Assembly (NCBI GenBank): GCA_961205875.1
Contig: OY540810.1
Coordinates: 20,646,001 to 20,710,000 of the forward strand
DNA: 64,000 bases
Source of the DNA: Sialis fuliginosa
Lineage: Eukaryota > Arthropoda > Insecta > Megaloptera > Sialidae
Direction: 5' to 3'
The notes under the pieces were generated by a model. That model was not told where the DNA came from and ran no database searches. It saw only the letters and a program-made list of their open reading frames with translations. Each line of letters opens with the position of its first letter. The first letter of the stretch is position 1. Below, piece after piece: positions 1,315 to 22,182 of the stretch. The position numbers and the translations under genes are program-made.

Positions 1315-1639
1315 GTTAAACGATAACCGCCGAATTATTGTAAGCGACAATTTTTTCGAAATTTAGTTTTGTATCTCGAATGACCTCATCATATACATTG
1401 AAACATAAAACTAATCCTTGTAACCCTGAGATTTACTCATAAAAAAATAAAATTACATTTCATTTTTATACACAAATTTGATGTTGGCAGTAGTTTAAAT
1501 TGTTAAACACTTAATAACCGCTAAAAATTACTTTAATTCTTCAATTAAGTTACTGAAACCATTTCTAAAATATACTTTTCCTGTAAAATTTATTTTTTGT
1601 CGATTACAACAATTTGGCGGTTAGGGTTCGATATTTAAC
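1315..1639. repeat. imperfect inverted repeat, about 325 bp (MITE-like)
   Basis: The left end reads GTTAAACGATAACCGCC then AATTATTGTAAGCGACAA. The right end, reverse-complemented, reads GTTAAATATCGAACC...AACCGCC then AATTGTTGTAATCGAC. The arms match for about 40 bases with gaps around an AT-rich centre. No clear target duplication is seen. Confidence 0.45.
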
Positions 1640-3132
1640 AGATGTAAGTGTACAAAATTTACAATATCCCTCATATATATGATTGACTGTCTTAAATAAA
1701 TAAAATATAGAATAAATTATAGAATACAGTATTGTATCAATTTACTCGATCTCCTAGACCCGTTTCTCCTCTCCTACGGACGCCCTTGCTCCAATAATTG
1801 TCTATTTAATGGTTAAAAACGAATCATCAGTCTAAATTTGAAAATTATTTATAAATCAATCTTAACACGACTATTTATTGTTTTTTTTTATTAATATTAT
1901 TCGTTGAAAACAACAAAACAATAATAAAACATTTTTTATACCGTAAGTAAAACAAGTTTAATGTAATTTAACGCAAAATTTTAATTTGAAATTACTTTAC
2001 CTTACCCGATTTCTTAGATCAAGAACCGCCACTGCTCTGCACAATATTGAGTCAGGTCTTTGTACATATAGTGACATTCATTGATGACTTTAATATATAA
2101 ACAGTATAGAAGTATTTTCATCCAATGAAAGATCCCATTAGGCTAACTTATGGGTTTTCTATTTGCGTTCGTCCGTAGGTCAACTATGTTGATCTTTAGA
2201 CAAACTGGGTATTTAAAAAAATAAATTAATCAATTATTTTTGCGTGGTTTGTATAAGCCATTAGATTATTTTATCTCAGACCTCCCAAATATGGCAACGA
2301 AATAGAATGTATAATTGTTTATTATTCATTATATTTAATAAAGAGGTGTAATCAAATTATTTATTATTTATCTTTTACTAAAGAGATTTTGATTATAGTG
2401 GCAGGCAATTTTTTAAACTCAGATTAGCTTTAAATTTTTATCAATTTTAGGGTCTAGTCGGTTTTTGTTTGATTGTTTTTATCAAATGTTATTTGAATTA
2501 ATTTAAGATATAGGTACATCCAATTCTTGTTTACATGGTAGATACATTCCAACGAAAACCGTCTAAAAAAGTATATATCTTTACAATTTATTAATTTATT
2601 TTTTATGTGTATGTAAGACACTAAAAATTTGATTTTTTTTAATTCGTGTTAGAACAAAAAATTCATGTGAAAAAGTGTATTTATTCTTCTCTGTGGACCG
2701 TATTATTTCAAAATCGTTGGTTGTATATACATTTAGAAATCAAGTTGTATGCATAAGTTTTGCTTTGACGTTTCGTTTAGTCAAAGCGAAATAACATTTT
2801 CATCGATAACAATAAATGATAACATGACAGATTTTATAACTTCTTAATAGTAGGTATAGTTATGAAAAGAACACATTGAATCGTAAAAGTATTATTTAAT
2901 TTACTTTTGTATTTAATTAGCTAGGTAATAATCAAGGCATGTAAAATACAAGGGAGCTTCAGTAGCTCGGTGCGAGAGAGGGAAATTCTTAATTCTCTTG
3001 GGCCCTTAAGGTATTTCTCGGTGAGCAACAAGGTTATATTATAAATAAAACAAATATTGCGCAATTTGTGAATTTCTCTGAAAGTTAAAAAAAATCAGTA
3101 ATAAGCCCCAATATTGTAAATTACTAAAAAAA
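1640..3132. other. AT-rich intergenic DNA
   Basis: I see no gene. A slightly more complex block at 2950-3035 (AGTAGCTCGGTGCGAGAGAG, then GGGCCCTTAAGG) folds into a small stem but is not a tRNA. The rest is poly-A/T-rich. Confidence 0.5.
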
Positions 3133-3312
3133 GATTATAAGAAGCTGCATTTAAAGTCCTTAAATGATTTATCATTTGTGAGCAAAGATATCGCCAAAAT
3201 AAATTATCATTGCAAAGGGATTATGATCGCAATCCTAAAATTGTATTTTATTTTGACGATATCTTTACCCACAGGTGGTGAATTATTTCATAATTTTGAA
3301 GCTTCTTATATT
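3133..3312. repeat. 180-bp hairpin MITE-like element
   Basis: The left arm (ATAAGAAGCTGCATTT...AAAGATATCGCCAAAATAAA) pairs with the right arm (TTTATTTTGACGATATCTTT...GAAGCTTCTTAT). Arms are about 70 bp with mismatches and the loop is short. Confidence 0.5.
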
Positions 3313-3429
3313 GATTTATTTTCTGAGAGATACCTGAAAGTTTGACCATCCTTGTTTTTTGAGACAGACTTAAATTTAAGAAGGTTACCATTATCCTAGA
3401 GTCGAGATAAATTTTTGCTGTAAACAGAT

Positions 3430-3720
3430 AAACTCACAGTCGGCATATTTCTACATGCATCAGACTATTGATTGATTGTTCGTAGAGGAGAGGGTCAGAC
3501 ATCAAATCAAAATAATATGATTAAGTATCCTGGCAGGCCGGGTACGGTGCCCGCCACTGCCTGCATACTGATGCAGACGTGTCACAAATACGATGGATCG
3601 GCATTTTTACAACACGTGATTTTTTTATTTATGCGTTTCATCATTATTGGACAAAGTCAGTACCGGACTTACATATGTAGGTGTTAACCTTTGGTGGACG
3701 GAAACGGATGTATAAGGTAA
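3430..3720. other. higher-complexity, GC-richer block
   Basis: This block stands out from its AT-rich surroundings by non-repetitive, moderately GC-rich sequence, including GGCAGGCCGGGTACGGTGCC and GCCTGCATACTGATGCAGAC. A 71-codon plus-strand frame (3472-3687) crosses it but ends in AT-rich filler and has no recognisable domain. It could be a conserved non-coding element or an exon of unknown identity. Confidence 0.3.
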
Positions 3721-3986
3721 GGTCCTTGAATAATTGTGAAAAGTGGAAATGGGAAAAGCAGAAAATGTCAATATAATTTAATTATTAATTGCGATACAGT
3801 GGCTCAAAAAAATAATCTTTTTCCAAAATGTTTTTTTACTCTTTTATACATACATGAAATGTACCGTATAATAAAGTATAGTGATCATTAAAAAATCGAG
3901 ATTTTAACGGAATTACACGTTTTGAAGGTCCCTGAATCACGTACGACCATTATCTCAATGACATCTGTGTGTGGGTCTGTCTGTCT

Positions 3987-4244
3987 CTAGCTAACAAGCA
4001 CTTTAAAATGAGGTTTATAACATATCTGACAGTTCTCTTGAAGTTTCTTGAAGCGTTTGACAATTTTCGCGCTCGCGTGGTATGTAAACACCAACGGTAT
4101 TAAAACAGTGGCGATATTATGAAAATTATTTTGTACGGTCAGAGTCGCCAACTGTGTTACAATAAGTTGTAGTATCACTTCCATAGCTAATTCACAGATA
4201 CTACCACAGAATTAAAACCCCATTTGAAAGTGCTTGCTAGTTAG
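3987..4244. mobile_element. 258-bp MITE with CTAGCTAACAAGCACTTT inverted ends
   Basis: The left end CTAGCTAACAAGCACTTT and the right end AAAGTGCTTGCTAGTTAG are inverted repeats. Pairing continues inward past GAGGTTT / AAACCCC. The interior has a distinct CGCTCGCGTGG segment. A 65-codon minus-strand frame here is just the element read through. No convincing target duplication is visible. Confidence 0.6.
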
Positions 4245-4379: not shown

Positions 4380-6165
4380 ATCTATGGAGGAAAAATAAGC
4401 AACTTTTATCCTGAAATAATTGTTTGTTCGACTTAATTTTTTCAATACTCTTACGTACCTATATAAAAATATCCATAATTATGTATATAGTAAATAAAAG
4501 CTAGTGTATGGATGAATGTTTATTGTATATGTATAATGTATATCTGTTATTATACATGCAAGGAATAATATTAAATCTTATTTAAAATTCATACAATTTA
4601 ATATGCACGTACATAATGATATTGATGTATGTATGTATATTTAATATTTGAAAATACATATTTATTTAATATAGCTCGTATAAACAATGGATATTGTATT
4701 TATTTATTGGTTGATGACCCTAAATATACACAATAAAAAAGAACACATTGTGTTAACAATTTAATAGGTACTTAAAATATATGTGTATGTATTTATAATG
4801 AGAAATGTATTAAAAAAAGGTAATATTTCGATAAAATAAATATAAAATTTTAATAATTCGATGTTAGCATTTGCGAGTTAGGTCGGAATTGTCTTATTAA
4901 AATACTTTATCGTTTTTATTATCATATTTGTATATAGAAGGCAATATCTTCTGTCATGTGGGTAGAAAATTTATGTGAGAGGTTTTTAAAAAAATTAGAA
5001 GAAATATCACTAAAGTTGATTATCTAACTATAACCACTCCCGTCAAGTTTGAAGAGTCAAAACTCACAATACCACTAATAAATACTAAAAACATGATATT
5101 AATTAGACAAATATTTAACATAAATTAGCATATTTATAAGCGTGGGTATTATATGAGGCGGTCTAAATATTCAATTAATATTTAAATTCGAAAGAAGTGG
5201 CGGGATAACTTTAACTGCTCTCAGATTAGTAACACGATGATATATGTTTATGCATTATAAAAACATTTCGGCTATTTCGGTAAATACTTTTTTGTGTATA
5301 TATGTATGTATATTTAAAATATTGTTTTTGTTATTTTTTAAATGATAGACGTTGAAATTGATATAGAAATAATTTATTAAATAGAAATTAATTATTAGTA
5401 GTTTCAACTCACTATTTGTTATAAAACTAATATAATTAATATAATTTATAAAATCTAATACTAATTTAGCTATTAGTTTGGAACAATTTTAAATGCGTTT
5501 TCACCTGAAATTCATCTCATAGGCATTTATGCAGATAAATGTAACAAAATAAAAAAAATTGACACCCCTTTCTTAGGGGTTGAATTTAAAAAAATCCTTT
5601 CCTATCGAACGCTTAGGTCGTAAAAGAAATACATATACTAGGTGTTTTTTAAAAGATTTTCCAGCGGATTATTTCCAAAATAACGAATTTTCAGAAAAAA
5701 TGTTTCAGTCAAAAGTTTCGTGGTTTCGAGAGCGCTAAATATTGACACTGATGGATTTTCAGGTTCAATTTTTCTTTTTCAAATCTAAACCAATATTTTT
5801 TGTTGCAGATTCGTAATTTACAGAGAAGAATAAACAACTTTTGTATGAAACATGTTTTGTCCATTTTTTATGATATGGAGCAAAACAAACTCTTCTTGAC
5901 ACGCCCCCTGTAGCCCCGGGTCAGCAAGCTAGAGTCCTGTAACCCCTTCTCCCCTCTGTGTGGGAACTATACTCATTGTTGAAGAAAAAATTTGATTGAA
6001 TACAAATAAATTCTTAGAATTTCTCAGCTACAGAAGCGTGTCTGCTTTTATGCATTTTCTTAATTATAAAATCTAAATGTTTTCATAAGACGTCGATTCG
6101 TACACATCTAATATTTACAATCCTATCCAGAAATGAAGCATTTCCAGCTTGAGGCTATCCTAACC
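4380..6165. other. AT-rich intergenic DNA with a degenerate repeat
   Basis: No gene is seen. From about 5545 to 5970 there is repeat-like text (CTTAGGGGTTGAATTT, GGTGTTTTTTAAAAG, CTTCTTGACACGCCCC) that partly recurs around 58395-58490, so this is probably a decayed transposon fragment. The remainder is low complexity. Confidence 0.45.
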
Positions 6166-6169
6166 TGTA

Positions 6170-6620
6170 AATTAAATGTAAAGAAAACAAAACCTCTTGT
6201 ACACTCGGTCTGATTGGGCATGAGTGTTGAGTTGCATACGTTCTAGACGCCATGTCTCGACTCAGTTTGTAACTAATTGTTTGGTTTGATAATTAGTGAG
6301 TCTTTGTGTCTTGATATCGTGCCCCGGGGTTTATAAACGTTACTGAATATGACAGCTTTCGCGAACTGAAATCTGCTGGCTCTTTGAGATATAGTGTACG
6401 TTCTATGGGCTGAGAACCCCGTCTGTCTTTCTCACTGCTTTGTGGCTTCAATTGTTTAAGAGTGCTCTCGAACTAAGATAATGTTCGTTGATGGTTATTT
6501 TCATACAGCTGTCAGTTTCAATAGTTCCAGCTACTACCGAGATTATGCATTGATAATTTAGGTTGGACAAGTACGGGCACATGCGGCACTGACATCACGG
6601 TTTCTTTACCTTCATTGCGT
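6170..6620. other. higher-complexity unique block
   Basis: About 450 bp with near-balanced base use, no internal repeats and no long frame (GCATACGTTCTAGACGCC, ATCGTGCCCCGGGG, GGGCACATGCGGCACTGACA). In a genome this AT-rich such blocks are often conserved non-coding or untranslated exons. I cannot assign a function. Confidence 0.3.
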
Positions 6621-8275
6621 GACAAGTATCCTCTTCATTTCAATACCATGCATATTTTTATTTGTAATATATTAGGTGAATACAATACTAGATCAAAATC
6701 TTAATATAATTTGTATTATATAATCAATATATGTGTATAATATATTGATAAAATGCTAATTAATTTTCGGATTGACAATGACTTTTCAGTAATTTAAATA
6801 GAAATATTGGAAGGAGCTTTGAAATATTGTTGTTAATCGAACATTTTTGTGTATTTTGATTTAAGGCACGTCTCGGTATCTTGATTTGTCTTGAAGTTAT
6901 TCAATAATAACTAAATTAAACTTCAAACGGCTGTCAATTTTTTTTCCACAAGTCCTATAATAATACATATTTAAACGAAATTTTCATCACATTCTTAATT
7001 TTTCCAAAATAAGGCAAAAATATTTTAAACAAAAAAAATCATATAATATATTCAACAATTGAATTCACATTTATAATCGAATAGATAGAATACTAAAAGT
7101 AAATCACGTGATAAAACCAAATTATTTCTATAGAACTTTTTGAAAATTTTATGTTTTATTTTAAATTTTAATTGAAAATTGTTGAAAAATTTGCGTGAAA
7201 CTTAGCGTATGTGGGTTGAGTTAACGCGGTGGGGTTTTCACATTGTTATAAAAATGTCCCTGACATCCAATCAAATTCCCTGACTTTTCACTCTCTCATG
7301 AAATTCTCTGAATTTTCCCGGTTTTCCAGAAAGTGGTTAAATGGATATAAATACGGTTAATTTAAATATGTAAAATCGCATGCAAAAGTGGTCTTCCAGT
7401 TTTCATTCATATTAGCTTATCACAAACTAAGTAGGCTCCTTCCATTATACATATTATTATAATATTTAAGTCATTTTTCCATGTACCAAACAAAGACATA
7501 TATTTTTGAATCTGTTGTAAGCGATTTTGGCCTTTACGGTGGCAGACGACTTCTGAAGGCGATAGTACATATGCACCTATACTCTATTTACAAAAAAGAA
7601 TCTTGTTTCTTTTGCCATAAAACTGTAAACTAGGTATTTCTAATTAGGTAGGTATACATTTGTTTAAATGATTTAATTTCTTGTAAAATAACATAAACGT
7701 GATTCATCAACTTATCTTAAGTATTTCAACCATCTCATAAACAAGTAAAATAATAACAATAAAACAAAACTAATTTACAACAGCCAATAATTGTCACATA
7801 GAAAGAAACACACACACATATTGTTCGCGTATAAATCGCGTGCAAGAATTCTACACGGTGTTTTTTTAAAGTGGCGTTTACAAGTACAGTTATAGCATTT
7901 CTAAGTTATATCTAACATAATTGCAATTACTTTGTGATTAATTACAACGTCATAATCCAAGCTGTGCGCGATTTATTCGAGAAACTGTCACCGGGATGCA
8001 AAAACCTATGCCTACTGTGGAGAGCTGGGATTCTTACTGTTATATTGGAATATAATTAAACGCATGATGGACTTCTGCAGATTTTAATTATTGTACACTA
8101 AGATAGTGTATCACGTGAAGCTTTTAATTAATCTTAGTTTATAACTTCATTATTTAGTTTTAATACTCTGGTTTATCTTAAGAGTAATATTGTTAACTGT
8201 TTATAGGATAAAGAATATAGCTGTTTTTGATTTGTTTAATGTTTGTTGTAAAAATTAATTAAATTATGTCGTTTA
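6621..8275. other. AT-rich intergenic DNA
   Basis: Mostly low complexity. At 7250-7335 there are TCCCTGACTTTTC / TTCTCTGAATTTTCCCGG words typical of a dispersed repeat tail. A 47-codon coding-looking stretch at 7916-8059 is listed separately. Confidence 0.45.
7916..8059 (+). CDS. short exon-like open frame, unrecognised
   Basis: The frame is open for 47 codons between two stops and has no start codon at its head, so if real it would be an internal or terminal exon. The second half has coding-like composition, including IQAVRDLFEKLSPGCKNL and LLWRAGILTVILEYN, and is richer in G and C than its flanks. I do not recognise a family, and clear splice sites are not obvious. It may be a transposon remnant or chance. 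Confidence 0.15.
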   Translation, partial: HNCNYFVINYNVIIQAVRDLFEKLSPGCKNLCLLWRAGILTVILEYN

Positions 8276-8277
8276 TA

Positions 8278-9269
8278 CAGGATGAATCATATCAGGTGGA
8301 ACAAACTTAAACAGTTGATCGAGAAAAAGATTTTAAACAAAAAAAATCATATGAAGATGTGTCCGGAAATTTATTGTGAGGGAGGATTTTGCCTAAAATT
8401 TAATACTCAGTTTAGTATTAATGCATGTTATCGATTTTCAGTATTAACCAATGATTATTTAGATCAGGGTGTGTATGGAGTCAGAGGCCTTTTGATTTTT
8501 TATATAGTATATTTGTGTACTTAAATCTTTTCCTGAATTTGGCACTTTTGTAAGATAATATGGTAAAAAATACACAGACACAGAAATATACTTTATTAAT
8601 TTGTCATAAGATCTTCCGTTTACGAGAAATACGATAGTGAAGATAGTGTTGCAGACTTTGACTTAATATGGATGCTTCATATTACACGAAATAAATTTAC
8701 ATTCTTGTTCTACGATTAAAAATAAGAAATAAAGTTTACTTAAATATTCCTCTTTATATAAACTAAAAATTGCCATTTGTTGATAAAAAAATCCTAAAAC
8801 AAAAATATAAATTTATTTCGTGTAGTTTGAACCATCCGTATTAAGTCAAATTATGAAATACTATCTTTACAATTGTATTTATCATAAACGGTTGATCTTA
8901 TGACAAACCAAAAAAGTATATTTCTGTGTATTTTGTGTTACATTATCTTAAAAAAGTGATTATTATTAGATAAAAATCTAAGGGTCCACTGGCCCAGTAC
9001 ACCCCTGATCTAAATAAATATTGTTTGATACTGGAAATCGAACACACGTATTAATACTAAACCAGATAATCAATTTTATAACTGTATCACAATGGGTTCT
9101 TCAGATATTAAATAACTAAATAACTAATTTAAATTTTAGGCAAAATCATTGGGGATCTGTAGCTCCCTCACGAAGAGTTTTCGGATATATGTTTATATAA
9201 ACTTTTTTGCTTGAGATATTTTTCTCGATCAAATGTTGAAAATTGTTTCACCTGATATGACTCAGCCTG
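8278..9269. mobile_element. 992-bp hairpin element, TA-flanked CAGG family, copy 1
   Basis: The ends CAGGATGAATCATATC and GATATGACTCAGCCTG are flanked by TA on both sides, the target choice of Tc1/mariner-type elements. The two halves are inverted copies: TGTGTCCGGAAATTTAT pairs with the right-arm copy near 9175-9195, TTAGATCAGGGTGTG with CACCCCTGATCTAAA, and ATATACTTTATTAATTTGTC with the copy near 8895-8930. There is no transposase. Copies 2 and 3 are at 36207 and 38481. An 80-codon frame at 8282-8524 is the left arm itself. Confidence 0.8.
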
Positions 9270-9271
9270 TA

Positions 9272-9739
9272 TAAAACTTTTTAATATAGGTACATAATAT
9301 GTTTATTCTATTAACTATGTGAATGTACGTATGCAGGGTAATTGTGGGAACTGAGTGATCATTGTTATCTTTCTCTTGGAAAACGGAAAAACTGTGGTTT
9401 CTTATGTCGAGTATTATAAAGAATTTTATCTAAAGCAAAAGCTAAACTAACACTATCAGCGAGGTGTCAAATCGTTGTATTAACTTGTTCGAGAATTTAA
9501 AGCAGTGGTAATAAATATATAATTGTATATGTTATGCATTTTAAGAGAAAAACTGATTTCTATTTAACGTGCAAGCGTCAAGGTCAATCATATAAATCAT
9601 ATCATTTATTAGAATTGTCAGTGAGCAGTCATTTCTATTTAATACTCCGCAGATAGTGTTAGCTTTTACTCCATAGTGGATTATTTATACTTAACATCGG
9701 AAATAAGTTACTAAAATTAAATATGTATAATTATATACC
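9272..9739. other. AT-rich intergenic DNA
   Basis: Nothing is recognised here beyond AT-rich filler. Confidence 0.5.
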
Positions 9740-9850
9740 TTAACCACAATGTCACTCGACACGTGTTTCGACTTCACAAGAAGTCCGTATCAGGAATTTA
9801 ATAGTTAGTAGTTCTTGTAAAGTCGAAAAACATTGTTGTATTGTGGTTAA
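9740..9850. mobile_element. 111-bp hairpin MITE
   Basis: The left arm TTAACCACAATGTCAC...TTTCGACTTCACAAGAA pairs with the right arm TTCTTGTAAAGTCGAAAAA...ATTGTGGTTAA, leaving a loop of about 30 bp. The termini TTAACCACAAT / ATTGTGGTTAA are perfect. Confidence 0.6.
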
Positions 9851-9900
9851 TGTGTATATTATTGTATATATTTAGTTTTATCGTTAACTTTATTATATTA

Positions 9901-10025
9901 TTGCAGATACAATATAAGAAAATCAGCATAAGAAATGGCGTTGTCAAAAAAAAAGTTCAACGTCGAATTCTGAGATATTTAGAAAAGAAACATATTTCTT
10001 ACAACTCAACAAATCTTAGTTATTG
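9901..10025 (+). pseudogene. possible decayed N-terminus of a ZBED/hAT-type transposase
   Basis: An acceptor-like TTTATTATATTATTGCAG precedes AGAAATGGCGTTG, which starts the peptide MALSKKKFNVEF and then a stop. A shift of frame continues with EIFRKETYFLQLNK. That order (Lys-rich start, F-N-V-E-F, then a Phe/Lys segment and Y-F-L-Q) loosely resembles the start of GTF2IRD2-like hAT transposases. A different frame reads through the same DNA for 61 codons (9841-10026). The resemblance is from memory and short, so this is a weak call. Confidence 0.15.
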
Positions 10026-17070: not shown

Positions 17071-18496
17071 ATGAATAGACATTGGCGGACTAAGGAAGGT
17101 TGCAGCCTGGGGCGGAATGTTAGTTATAGGCTCCCCCCCCCACGATACCCCGGTGGCACGTCATATATATTTTAATGAAAATTTGTTTAGCAAAATTAAT
17201 AAGCAAATAATGGCCATATAATAACCGTATACACTTATTTTTAGAATTGTAAAATACTCATAAGTACCTGTAACGGGCGTTAAAAATTTCGGAAGGCTAT
17301 TTAAAAATCTGCAATATCTCTTAATTCCATTTGTGTGTTTTTTTTTGTAGATTGTGACTTTATTAATATAAGCAGATATAAACATAAAAATGAAGCTAGA
17401 TTGTATGTTTATCTATTTTTAATGATTTTTGATAAGTGTAACGGGCGTTACACACACTGATAAAGATAATTTTTACTTCATTGTTGGGGGTTGTTAGTGA
17501 TTTTAAAATAATAGGTAATAATGAAAAAGGTGTTATTTCTTATTGTTTCTTACCATTTAGGCGTCAATTTATCAAAACGTGAACTTTTATGAAAACAAAA
17601 TTCAAATAAAAAAGTCAGTAAAAGTAGCGGTTAGTCTGGACTCACCCCATAAGTACTTTATTATTTATTTCATGTATATATAAAAAAGTAAAGTCTTTAC
17701 ATACAATATTTCAAAGCCTGATAAAGTTCTGCTTGCCGCACAGTCCCCCTCCTCTAGTCTGCTACTGTGTATATAAATTTCATTTTAGTACGACACCTAC
17801 TTTTTCATTTAATTCAAATTCTCAATGACAAAAACATCAAAAGCTAAATTAAGCAATAAATAATAATATAGCTTTCACAAAGCAAATATCTATAAGAAAA
17901 GTTCACATAATACGTATAAAAACAATTTATATTGTATTTATTTATAATTTTTCATAACTACAACACAAACTTTACAAATGATATGCTGTTGTTCACCTCA
18001 GGGTTATTATTAAATCACGATCTCACCTGTTTAAATACAGAATATGTTATATCTACAATGTCTGGTCATGTAAACGCATGGTTGGAGGCGAAAACTGTTA
18101 AACGTTATCCTTTCACTGAACACCTTGATTAAATTTTGAAAGCGGTGATTATGTTCATTAGTTTTTAATATTTCGTATTGTAATGACGGTTGAGTTTTAT
18201 GATTAATTTATCAATAGTTATTACAACACAATATTTAGATTAAATGGCCTTACATAAAACATATTATACCATGTATGTATAAAGAAAAGTTTATGTAGCT
18301 ATTTATCTACATACCTAACCTATGTTCGCTTCTAGCAAGAGAACCACTGGACCGATTTGGTTGGAGTTTAAAAAAAATAATAGCTAGTACATATTTTCTC
18401 GAAAACTTTTAGAACTATGGACCATTTAGATACGTCTCCGAGTCACTAACCTATTATATTATAGATATAATAAAATATTTAAAGTAAATTACCATA
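17071..18496. other. AT-rich intergenic DNA with minor repeats
   Basis: Contains C10 and C/G-run text near 17090-17160, two copies of the near-palindrome TGTAACGGGCGTTA (17269 and 17437) and a degenerate tail-like repeat at 18300-18440 (GAGAACCACTGGACCGATTT). The 66- and 74-codon frames are AT-rich and unsupported. Confidence 0.45.
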
Positions 18497-19090
18497 CACT
18501 GTTAGAAATTTCCATTGTAATTTTACACAACATGTTGTGGAAGCTAATATGCATAACATTTAGTCAAAATTCAAATCGAGTATTGTAATTTTACAAAACT
18601 TTTATCTTTGCATTTGTTTTAGAATATTACAAAGTAACATAGTAATATTACCAAACATTTTTTGCATTAGTTTACTAATTTTACATTACAAGTAGTGTGA
18701 TTTTACAATACAATTCATATTTAATAAGTTCTGTAATATAAGAAAAAAGTATTGTAATTTTACAAAACACATAAGGTTCCATTAGTTTAATAATTTTGTA
18801 AAACGGTTTTGTAATTTCACAATTAATTTCAGATCAGTTTAGTTTGTAAAATTACAATACTTTTTTTATATTAAAGAACTTATTAAATATGAATTGTATT
18901 GTAAAATCACAATACTTGTAATGTAAAATTAGTAAACTAATGCAACAAAATTTTTGGTAATATTACTATAATTACTTTGTAATATTCTAAAACAAATGTA
19001 AAAATAAAAGTTTTGTAAAATTACTAAATGTTATACATATTAGCTTCCACAACATGTTTTATAAAATTACAATGGAAATTTCAAACCAGT
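18497..19090. mobile_element. 594-bp palindromic element packed with TTGTAAAATTACAA motifs, copy 1
   Basis: The ends CACTGTTAGAAATTTCC and GGAAATTTCAAACCAGT are inverted and TA-flanked. Inner arms pair throughout: AACATGTTGTGGAAGCTAATA (left) with its complement near 19035, and ACAATACAATTCATATTTAA with its complement near 18885. Almost every 25-45 bases the sequence returns to a TTGTAATTTTAC-like word or its complement. No transposase is present. Confidence 0.7.
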
Positions 19091-19343
19091 ATGATTCAAT
19101 AACTGTAAAAAATATAGATAAATCAGTAAAATTCAAAATTTAAAGAACAAAAACGGTCGTTGATTTTGTATAGAATATTATACATATATTTTATATATTA
19201 TACATATATTGATACATATATTAACATTTGCAATGTTTTGAAGGATGCATGTGCAATATGACATGTAGGTCATATTATCAGAGTGCATGATACAAAAACA
19301 CGAAAGAGATGTAAACATTGTAAAAATCAAATAATTTTTAAGA

Positions 19344-19576
19344 CCAAAAAATGTAATATACACCTGCATCCTGAATATTTTGAAAATTTACACACTAAAT
19401 AAATAATAAATGTAATATAAATAAATTATTAATTATAATTAAATCATAAGTCTTGGTGTTTACATTAATTTTTACATTTTTAGTTTCATTTATTTATACT
19501 ATCAAAATAGTCAACGCAACATTAAAAATTGAGGAACTTGGGTCCCCCAAAAAATGTAATATACACCTGCATCCTG
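19344..19576. repeat. 30-bp direct repeat, 203 bp apart
   Basis: Two identical 30-base blocks at 19344-19373 and 19547-19576 share ATGTAATATACACCTGCATC and the bases around it. The upper copy is joined to the last exon of the CIDE-N-like pseudogene. The lower copy begins a separate 63-codon minus-strand frame (19178-19369). The 173 bases between are AT-rich. Template switching or a small duplication is a possible origin. Confidence 0.7.
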
Positions 19577-19603
19577 TCTAAATCCTTTATATGGAGTGTT
19601 GGC

Positions 19604-19705
19604 GTACTTAATTGGCTAGATTGGTTAATTGATGTACTTGGTTGAACAACAAACGTACTTAGTTGGCTAGGCTGGTTAGTTAATTAACTTGGTTGAACAG
19701 CTAAA
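19604..19705 (-). repeat. 51-bp tandem repeat (two units), 17-residue coding repeat
   Basis: Units 19604-19654 and 19655-19705 both start GTACTTA and contain TTGGCTAG..TGGTTA and ACTTGGTTGAACA. On the minus strand each encodes a VQPS...NQ.SQLST unit, 17 residues long, so the period preserves the frame. The upstream unit carries the stop codon. Confidence 0.65.
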
Positions 19706-19933
19706 ACACTTTCTGCAATCAATACAATTAACAATTCTATAAAAATAATGAAATACAATTTTTTTGTGATAATGTGAAAATAGTCGAGTATCAGTTAGTA
19801 GATTAAATTTTAGATTAAACAATAGTAATAACGAAATCAAAGATTATTTGTATAACAATTATATGTCACAACTTTTAAATATTGATTGCCAATGGTTATC
19901 CGAAATTTGTAGAATAATGATGAAAACTTTTAC

Positions 19934-20087
19934 CTGTTAATCCAGTACTAGTACTTTGTGTAGAAACATGACTGGTCCATGGAATTCCATCTGGGACCAT
20001 TGTTAACAACAAATGATTTTTACTGTTTTCAGCTAAATCTGTTAATATATCGTCATCATCAATTTCACAGTAATCCTCTGTAAATAT
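19934..20087 (-). pseudogene. exon 3 of the CIDE-N-like remnant
   Basis: This is the best supported exon: 154 bp, fully open in one frame, preceded by a T-rich tract ending TTAACAG and followed by CAG/GTAAAAG. It encodes the acidic DDDD turn, the Leu-rich strand LLLTMV and a PDGIPW segment, followed by a Ser/Thr-rich linker. Its base composition is visibly less AT-biased than the introns on both sides. Confidence 0.55.
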
Positions 20088-20617
20088 CTGTTAAAAAAAA
20101 TCTATTATTAAAAAAAGTAGACAACGCAATAATTATGAATAAAAAAAAATCTAAATACCTTGTCATTTTCTTCTGTCAATACCTACTAGTTTTAATTTTG
20201 CAGCACGAAGCAGCTCATCCATTGTAGTGGCTTTTACCAATTTCTTTTCTGACAATTAGTGCATCAATGAATCTTATTCATAAAAGCACATGGGTATTTA
20301 CATTGATTCTTTTTTTGTTTCAATATTTTTAATTATCGAAATACATATTTACTTTAAAGAATTTAGGAATCAATTAAACAATATGATTAAACAATGCGAT
20401 ATACATATGACTGATTGTGAGAAGAAAGATTTAACCTTATCATCAACTTACCTCTATTAACAACACTTCCTTTCTATACTTTTTATTTTTAATTAACACA
20501 AGTTTTTTTATTACTAGATGTTGCGTTAAGCCGGTCACAACACGGCCAAACTAAACTTAAACTGACGATGAGTCGAATGGATATTTACTGAAAATTAATA
20601 ACAAAGTAGGACTTGTG

Positions 20618-20851
20618 TAGTTCACGAACGACCTATTTCAAAAGAGCGGCTCCCACTCGTTTCTAAAAATGAGATTGTACGATTTTTATATTTAATAAGT
20701 TACGTTTACAATACATTACATTTATTTTACTAAAGGTATATTATATTGATTTCTTTTTTGGTATTGTATATAAATAATAGTATTGTATATAAAAGTATCG
20801 GGAACTATTGAACTAAAAGAGTCGGAGCCGCTCTTTTGAAGAGGTGAACTA
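20618..20851. mobile_element. 234-bp MITE, TA-flanked, with GTTCAC ends
   Basis: The left end TAGTTCACGAACGACC...TTCAAAAGAGCGGCTC pairs with the right end GAGCCGCTCTTTTGAA...GAGGTGAACTA. TA flanks both termini. The arms hold an unusual GAGCGGCTCC segment, and the centre is AT-rich. Confidence 0.65.
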
Positions 20852-21336
20852 TGCACAATAAGTCTACACTTTAGAGCGATGCAGGCGGTGAGGGGAATGT
20901 GCCGTTTTGTTATAAACTTACATTTTCTGTCTCTTTCTTACTCACACTCACTTGTGAATATGTTATTATTGCCATAGTCACGGCGCACTGTTAATTATTG
21001 GCACATTTTATATTTGAAAACGCGGTTCCTAATCCTTCTGAAAATTTACAGATATCTTTATGAATTAATGAAGAATATAATAATATGCTTAAATTTTCAT
21101 TAAATTCTCTCTGTCACTTCACTTTAAAAAAATTATGAAACCATAAGAATGCATGTTAATTTGTTCATTTAATATCTCATAAATTATTCTCCTAATGATC
21201 TTGAAATTTTACCAAGATTATTTAAGTACAAATGTTTTTTTGTTTATAAAGTTTCATCAAAATCTCTCTATTATTATTCTATGGTGTCAAGTATCAACCT
21301 CCTTAAATTTATTTAACATACCTAATATTAACATTA
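20852..21336. other. intergenic DNA
   Basis: No gene. A slightly complex patch at 20880-21000 (GCAGGCGGTGAGGGGAATG, CATAGTCACGGCGCACTG) is unassigned; the rest is AT-rich. Confidence 0.45.
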
Positions 21337-21606
21337 GGGGGCATCCATTAATTACGTGAGATCAAATTGGGGAGGGGAAGGGTCCAGCAAAATCTCACCA
21401 AATCTCCTTTAAATGAAGGGGGGGGGGGGGCATTGAAAATCTCACGTCAACTTTTTGATTGAAAGAATATACATTATTATTACAGATAATAATAAAAAAA
21501 ATCTCATTTGAGGGGGGGGGTCCTACCACATCTCACCAAATCTCATCAAGGGAGAGGGTGGTCCAAATTCAAAGAAAAACACCTCACGTAATTAATGGAC
21601 GCCCCC
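21337..21606. mobile_element. 270-bp MITE with GGGGGCATCCATTAATTACG ends, copy 1
   Basis: The left end GGGGGCATCCATTAATTACG and the right end CGTAATTAATGGACGCCCCC are inverted repeats; TCTCACCAAATCTC recurs inside both arms. Flanking TTA / TTT suggests a 3-bp target of the PIF/Harbinger kind with one change. It contains a G12-13 run (around 21419-21431). The 65-codon frame here is element DNA. Confidence 0.7.
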
Positions 21607-21734
21607 TTTGTAAATATGAAATATTAATAATAAAACTTTTTATAAAAAAGGTTTAGTTTTTGATTAACAAAATAATAAAAAATCTTTTTTTATAATTATA
21701 AAAATTATCAATATAGATAAAAATTAAACAATAA

Positions 21735-22158
21735 TAAGTTCAGTAAAATTACAATTTGCGTAGGATAAATAAAAAATTTTGGTAACATTACAATGCACTA
21801 TGTAATTTGACAATCAAAATTGTAAAGATAATAAAAAGCTTTTTAAATTTTTAATGAGTTTATTGTAATATAAATTACAATATTTGTTTGTGATTTTACA
21901 TAAAATTATAGCGAATCAAATCACAAACAATGTTTGTGATTTGATTGTAAATTTACGAATGGTACTGTAAAATCACAATGTGTTTAAGGTTTATACATAA
22001 ATATTGTAAAATTACAACTCATCTTAGTAGGTTTACTCACATGTCTTGGAAAATTACTCAAATTGTATTATAATTTCGTATTACCATACACTGATTTGTA
22101 ATTTTACTCATTTTTGTTTTGTAATATAATTGTAATTTTACAAAACTTTTTAACAGTG
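21735..22158. mobile_element. TTGTAAAATTACAA-motif palindromic element, copy 2
   Basis: The right end TTTTTAACAGTG mirrors the left end of the copy at 18497 (CACTGTTAGAAA) and is followed by TA. The interior again repeats TTGTAATTTTAC, TTGTGATTTTAC and their complements. The left end is eroded. Confidence 0.55.
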
Positions 22159-22182
22159 TAGGTTAATGCAAATATTATATAT

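Follow-up and report, generated by a model that had tools for sequence, protein, structure and literature searches.

A probable CACTA/EnSpm-related transposon with a decayed CIDE-N accessory gene in Sialis fuliginosa

The CIDE-N domain occurs in animal proteins that regulate fat storage and a nuclease involved in cell death, and in the known proteins it joins head to tail via acidic and basic faces. Arrays of short motifs close to the termini are a feature of CACTA transposons, and in maize En/Spm the ends of the element are gathered by the protein TNPA. We know of no CIDE-N domain in TNPA.

Among animal CACTA/EnSpm elements, SmTRC1 and Spongebob have CCC ends and make 2-bp target duplications, and the portions of their accounts consulted here name no CIDE-N gene (PMC1636069, PMC4298943). 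The signature of the EnSpm/CACTA group, in the consulted part of another report, is the order D, D, CxxC, HxxxH and E, with CAC..GTG ends and a 3-bp duplication as consistent features (PMC12730594). Transposons with extra genes or domains have been described, namely fungal transposons with TET/JBP genes (PMC12730594, in part) and MUGB, a (former) transposon with a PB1 domain (PMC8616336, in part). They resemble the element reported here in carrying such a part, but the domain is not CIDE-N in either case. No description of CIDE-N on a transposon was recognised among the listed matches in open-licence literature, as far as the text of these sources was available.

The DNA analysed here (the window) is a stretch of 64,000 bases of the Sialis fuliginosa genome, positions 20646001-20710000 of contig C2. 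A search of the genome (392 Mb, 20 contigs) with the peptide encoded in the window gives at least 19 matches at at least 10 loci. The 10-kb stretches around nine loci outside the window were each aligned to the window. Eight of the nine (L025 to L032) carry the same element with both termini, and the ninth (L033, on contig C11) aligns with the DNA of the window in a single 143-base piece, with 69% identity, over the second coding exon of the gene described below. In the window, this transposon-like, non-autonomous copy is located on the minus strand at 18497-22158 (3,662 bp), with ends common to the eight other copies. It begins with CACTGTTA and finishes with TAACAGTG in the minus sense, and the termini are the same in all nine copies compared. 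At least nine copies, including that in the window, are known in the genome. The nine are 3,091-3,780 bp long and share pairwise identities of 95.1-99.9%, with gaps left out. Two pairs (L029/L032 and L027/L028) are 99.9% identical, which points to recent movement.

The element in the window is flanked by a 2-bp target-site duplication, TA, at 22159-22160 on the 5' side and 18495-18496 on the 3' side. In every copy the two flanking dinucleotides are identical, TA in eight and TG in one (L032). All nine copies thereby combine CAC..GTG ends with a 2-bp duplication, within the 2-3 bp expected of CACTA/EnSpm elements. The duplication is nevertheless 1 bp shorter than the 3 bp given for EnSpm in PMC12730594, which counts against the assignment to this group. 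The ends differ from the CCC ends of the animal elements SmTRC1 and Spongebob. A C or G stands directly before the duplication in all nine copies, in a genome that is A+T-rich, which suggests a target preference.

Tc1/mariner elements have an invariable TA target duplication. The TA flanks of eight copies would suit a unit of this type, or another TA-targeting unit, that has a CACTA-type transposase as its neighbor on C11 by chance. TA duplications are also made by groups other than Tc1/mariner, among them ESTA, which is EnSpm-like (PMC12730594, in part). One copy has TG on both sides, however, and the CAC..GTG ends fit EnSpm (PMC12730594, in part), as do the terminal motif arrays. Duplications of 2 bp are found in animal CACTA elements as well (PMC1636069, PMC4298943, both in part). 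We regard a TA-targeting unit with a chance neighbor as improbable.

The two subterminal regions, at 18497-19096 (3') and 21559-22158 (5'), contain the same GTAAAATTACA/TGTAATTTTAC motifs, and the 3' region also has large imperfect inverted repeats. The motif GTAAAATTACA or its complement is present eight times in the element, always within 600 bp of an end and never in the middle, and it is absent from the remaining 60,334 bases of the window. In 200 shuffles the mean count is 0.03 and the highest is 1. This arrangement corresponds to the subterminal repeat arrays of CACTA/EnSpm elements.

Two further pairs of inverted repeats are located inside the element. Those at 21336-21607 (AGGGGGCATCCATTAATTACGTGAG, 272 bp end to end) look like a nested miniature transposon, and a sequence resembling this region is also seen by eye in L030. 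A 26-nt inverted repeat (TTCAAAAGAGCGGCTCC...) at 20637-20840, 204 bp end to end, is perhaps another. No RNA family reaches its gathering score in the window.

The gene remnant is also on the minus strand. An earlier note on this DNA had proposed a four-exon CIDE-N-like gene here and gave only its outer range, so that the bounds of its four segments are our reconstruction. The peptide strings that it quoted are present on this strand, and segments 2 to 4 are coding remnants. The model is wrong in detail for segment 1 (near 20473-20452), which is not coding, as L030 and L031 have their own ATG just before segment 2 (MVIFKVCRHDK... in L030). The GTAAGT at 20451 is at most a donor site in the UTR.

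The remnant of coding exon I, at 20159-20258, is recognized by comparison with L030, L031 and L033. The whole exon is kept in L030 (MVIFKVCRHDKLSEKKLVKATTMDELLRAAKLKLVLTEENYK) and in L031, which differs from L030 by one residue across the matched stretch. In the window, the first codons (MVIFKVCRHD in L030) are missing, a TAA is found at 20258-20256, the first base of which is A in all eight other copies, and an extra GTAG is located inside 20177-20192. The same insertion is present in L025, L029 and L032 and is not found in L026-L028, L030 or L031. It creates a GTAGGT site, the probable place where segment 2 had been cut (KLKL|GTAGGT). Segment 2 is therefore part of a real exon, but the exon began further upstream and its true end is at 20159 (AAG|GTATTT).

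An intron with GT..AG boundaries in phase 0, as in L033, follows at 20088-20158. Exon II (IFTEDYCEIDDDDILTDLAENSKNHLLLTMVPDGIPW...), at 19934-20087, is open in the window and agrees with segment 3, and the matching exon in L033 has the same phases. In L030 and L031 this exon has one stop and a 1-bp deletion. A second GT..AG intron, in phase 1, is located at 19713-19933. Exon III (19571-19712), which bears out segment 4, is truncated and rich in Ser, Thr and Gln, and it contains a tandem repeat of 51 nt (17 codons) as well as a TAA at 19686-19684. This stop is shared with L025, L029 and L032, while L026-L028, L030 and L031 have AAA. Near 19571, the group of copies that includes the window has a deletion filled by a 30-base copy of 19344-19373 (at 19547-19576, minus strand). 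L026-L028, L030 and L031 have other sequence here, and their frame runs 48 codons further. The stop in the last exon that had been noticed is thus real, but it is one of several lesions, with the TAA and the GTAG in exon I and the deletion at about 19571.

An unbroken frame over the complete domain is absent from all nine copies. In L026-L028 (contigs C12, C1 and C6), exon I is shorter by 33 bases, in frame, and the three exons are otherwise open, so a shortened protein from these copies is conceivable. Compared with the window, exon II has differences at 2 of 154 bases in L026, 3 of 153 in L030 and 5 of 154 in L029, and exon III at 5, 6 and 4 of 136, respectively. The corresponding values for the 5' part are 48 of 1540, 45 of 1620 and 48 of 1648. 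The exons appear to be under no clear constraint among the sister copies, by counts that are small and with exon I/intron bounds that are 3 bases off. Between the sister exons and those of L033, dN is 0.36 and dS is 1.3, which indicates that the gene was formerly selected as a protein. Together with the matches at other loci in the genome, these values show that the segments are not chance splice-like sites.

The identity of the domain is best seen in the relatives of the window copy. Against Pfam CIDE-N (PF02017, cut-off 23.5 bits), the L033 exons score 33.7 bits (E 3.9e-8) and exon I of L030 joined to exon II of L026 scores 27.0 bits (E 4.8e-6). The window's own letters, read across the frame break, reach 17.7 and 19.4 bits. 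The CIDE-N assignment made earlier is therefore correct for the family but falls below the cut-off for the window itself. The KHA profile (cut-off 29.6 bits) scores above CIDE-N on the window's own letters (20.2 and 21.6 bits), still below its cut-off, and is the second match, again below cut-off, in L033 and the joined sister exons (18.7 and 21.4 bits). Three weaker Pfam families are matched in L033 besides these two. The four-segment splice, joined as reconstructed for the earlier note, has no Pfam match and was dropped.

A search of the PDB with the L033 peptide (E up to 10) lists eight matches. Five are CIDE-N proteins, with CIDE-A at E 0.0069 and CIDE-B, CIDE-3 (twice) and Drep4 at E 0.11-1.4, and the other three are RNA polymerase subunit entries (E 0.22-0.27). 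The window's own peptide has one match, at chance level (E 0.48). Pattern searches for relatives among viral contigs gave 4 and 156 matches, none of which was confirmed.

By profile, then, the domain is CIDE-N, as in DFF40/DFF45, CIDE-A/B/C and Drep1-4, and like these proteins it has an acidic stretch. This agrees with the first interpretation of the locus, which saw here the decay of a gene from the DFF nuclease system or from a host CIDE-N family. Unlike in those proteins, a Ser/Thr/Gln-rich stretch follows the domain, the gene is mobile, and no other Pfam domain is above cut-off in the pieces scanned. In particular, Pfam finds no nuclease or inhibitor domain in the joined peptides and last exons scanned. 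Separate CIDE-N genes, which we take to be DFF/Drep-like (L001, L002/L004 and L003/L005), are located outside the element at C4, C1 and C8. The remnant itself sits in a sharply bounded, repeated element, the 2-bp flanks of which match in nine of nine copies, and this contradicts a host gene as the unit that is copied in the Sialis fuliginosa genome. We give this interpretation almost no weight. The alternative offered with it, an uncharacterised family using the domain, came close, but the transposon that carries the gene was missed. Two of the CIDE-N genes outside the element are split in the middle of the domain, apparently by an intron.

The relative of the gene at L033 directly adjoins a transposase frame. 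An open frame at 1566-4226 (887 residues) is followed on the same strand by the two CIDE-N exons, at 4594-5161, which are 55% identical to the sister exons. The frame contains D370, D458, C479xxC, H700xxxH704 and E724, for which catalytic roles are putative. The order of these motifs makes it a candidate CACTA/EnSpm-type transposase. Its two Asp residues are 88 residues apart and are accompanied by CxxC, compared to about 80 and CxxC in SmTRC1 (PMC1636069, in part). Two Pfam matches to this transposase are both below cut-off, and neither is specific to CACTA. In the copies of the family inspected (window, L030 and L026) there is no transposase frame, the longest frame being at most 123 codons. 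The terminal sequence CACTGTTA is found once in L033, at 4791, within the intron of the CIDE-N gene, and its complement is absent from the 10-kb stretch.

The genome has 24 matches to the L033 transposase, including four with identical scores. At four other transposase loci (L035-L038), a coding-like stretch is located upstream, not downstream, of the transposase, and that of L038 is similar to those of L035 (E 2e-10), L036 (E 7e-7) and, weakly, L037 (E 0.02). The L033 CIDE-N peptide has no match (E up to 1) in the fetched parts of these four loci, and the link between CIDE-N and the transposase therefore comes from one locus. The Pfam scan of the upstream stretches covered three stretches of L038. 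In L035, DUF4218 is matched below cut-off (15.3 versus 27 bits). A resemblance between the sister last exon and the L038 upstream stretch was dropped, as 565 of 2000 shuffles score as well.

The main rival is a Pack-type capture, in which a transposon took up the exons of a host CIDE-N gene and spread them without the gene ever serving the element. Pack-CACTA elements are described as capturing host exons, and a Mutator-related precursor as capturing PB1 (PMC8616336, in part), and the family has no transposase in the three copies named above. The CIDE-N domain of the sister copies resembles that of host L001, with a score of 54 (shuffle mean 28) that is reached in 1 of 2000 shuffles. The L033 domain is less like it (score 41, reached in 62 of 2000 shuffles). 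Against capture, the two exons also occur in L033, immediately 3' of a transposase frame, an arrangement that would require two capture events, or a single old one that remained linked to a transposase. Moreover, the L033 peptide has at least 12 matches in its own genome, all of them at C11 or in eight of the nine element copies, and none of the best is host-like. On balance we consider capture unlikely.

Our preferred reading is that 18497-22158 of the window is a broken, non-autonomous transposon related to CACTA/EnSpm (CMC) that carries a decayed CIDE-N accessory gene, and we think it likely. The remnant of a CIDE-N gene is present in a repeated family whose ends are CACTA-like, and a relative of this gene adjoins a CACTA-type transposase frame. 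CIDE-N probably belongs to a gene that is accessory to a CACTA-like transposon of animals, with the transposase link coming from one locus. From this we infer that the gene is the element's own. Confidence in the accessory-gene reading is lowered by the weaker likeness of the L033 domain to the host domain, by the position of CACTGTTA inside the gene in L033, and by the open, shortened frame in L026-L028.

The accessory protein would begin with the CIDE-N domain, followed by the Ser/Thr/Gln-rich stretch. The domain may let the protein oligomerise, and the oligomer could bring together, at the element ends, either the transposase or the subterminal GTAAAATTACA arrays, comparable to TNPA. Copies lacking a transposase would depend on an autonomous relative for movement in trans, and the gene would have decayed in the window copy. 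The similarity to maize En/Spm considered here is one of layout, with short motifs arrayed near the termini and, next to the transposase gene, an accessory one. More tentatively, and with somewhat less than even confidence, a lineage of animal CACTA-like transposons may have a second gene of its own, for a CIDE-N oligomerisation protein that assembles the element ends.

An accessory part of this kind, a CIDE-N domain encoded by a transposon, would be new for CACTA-like elements. In the consulted part of a study of cnidarians, CIDE-N is in excess in Hydra (10 and 7, compared to 1-3 in five other cnidarians) and is grouped with DNA-binding motifs (PMC7642931). If our reading is true, such excesses could, as a conjecture, consist partly of transposon genes, and annotations of animal genomes might then report expansions of CIDE-N genes that are false. 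Host genes with the domain might in some cases descend from transposon ones, or the reverse, which offers a checkable route for such domains between transposons and hosts.

Other repeats are located around the L033 genes. A Gypsy-type retrotransposon, recognized by eye, extends over 5261-9968 (frames 5960-6958 and 6919-9594) and cuts the CIDE-N gene. Its second long terminal repeat is not found within the 10 kb, and a mariner-like stretch follows it near 9651. Tandem repeats with a unit of about 100 nt, located at 625-1157 before the transposase frame, are possibly the subterminal repeats of that element.
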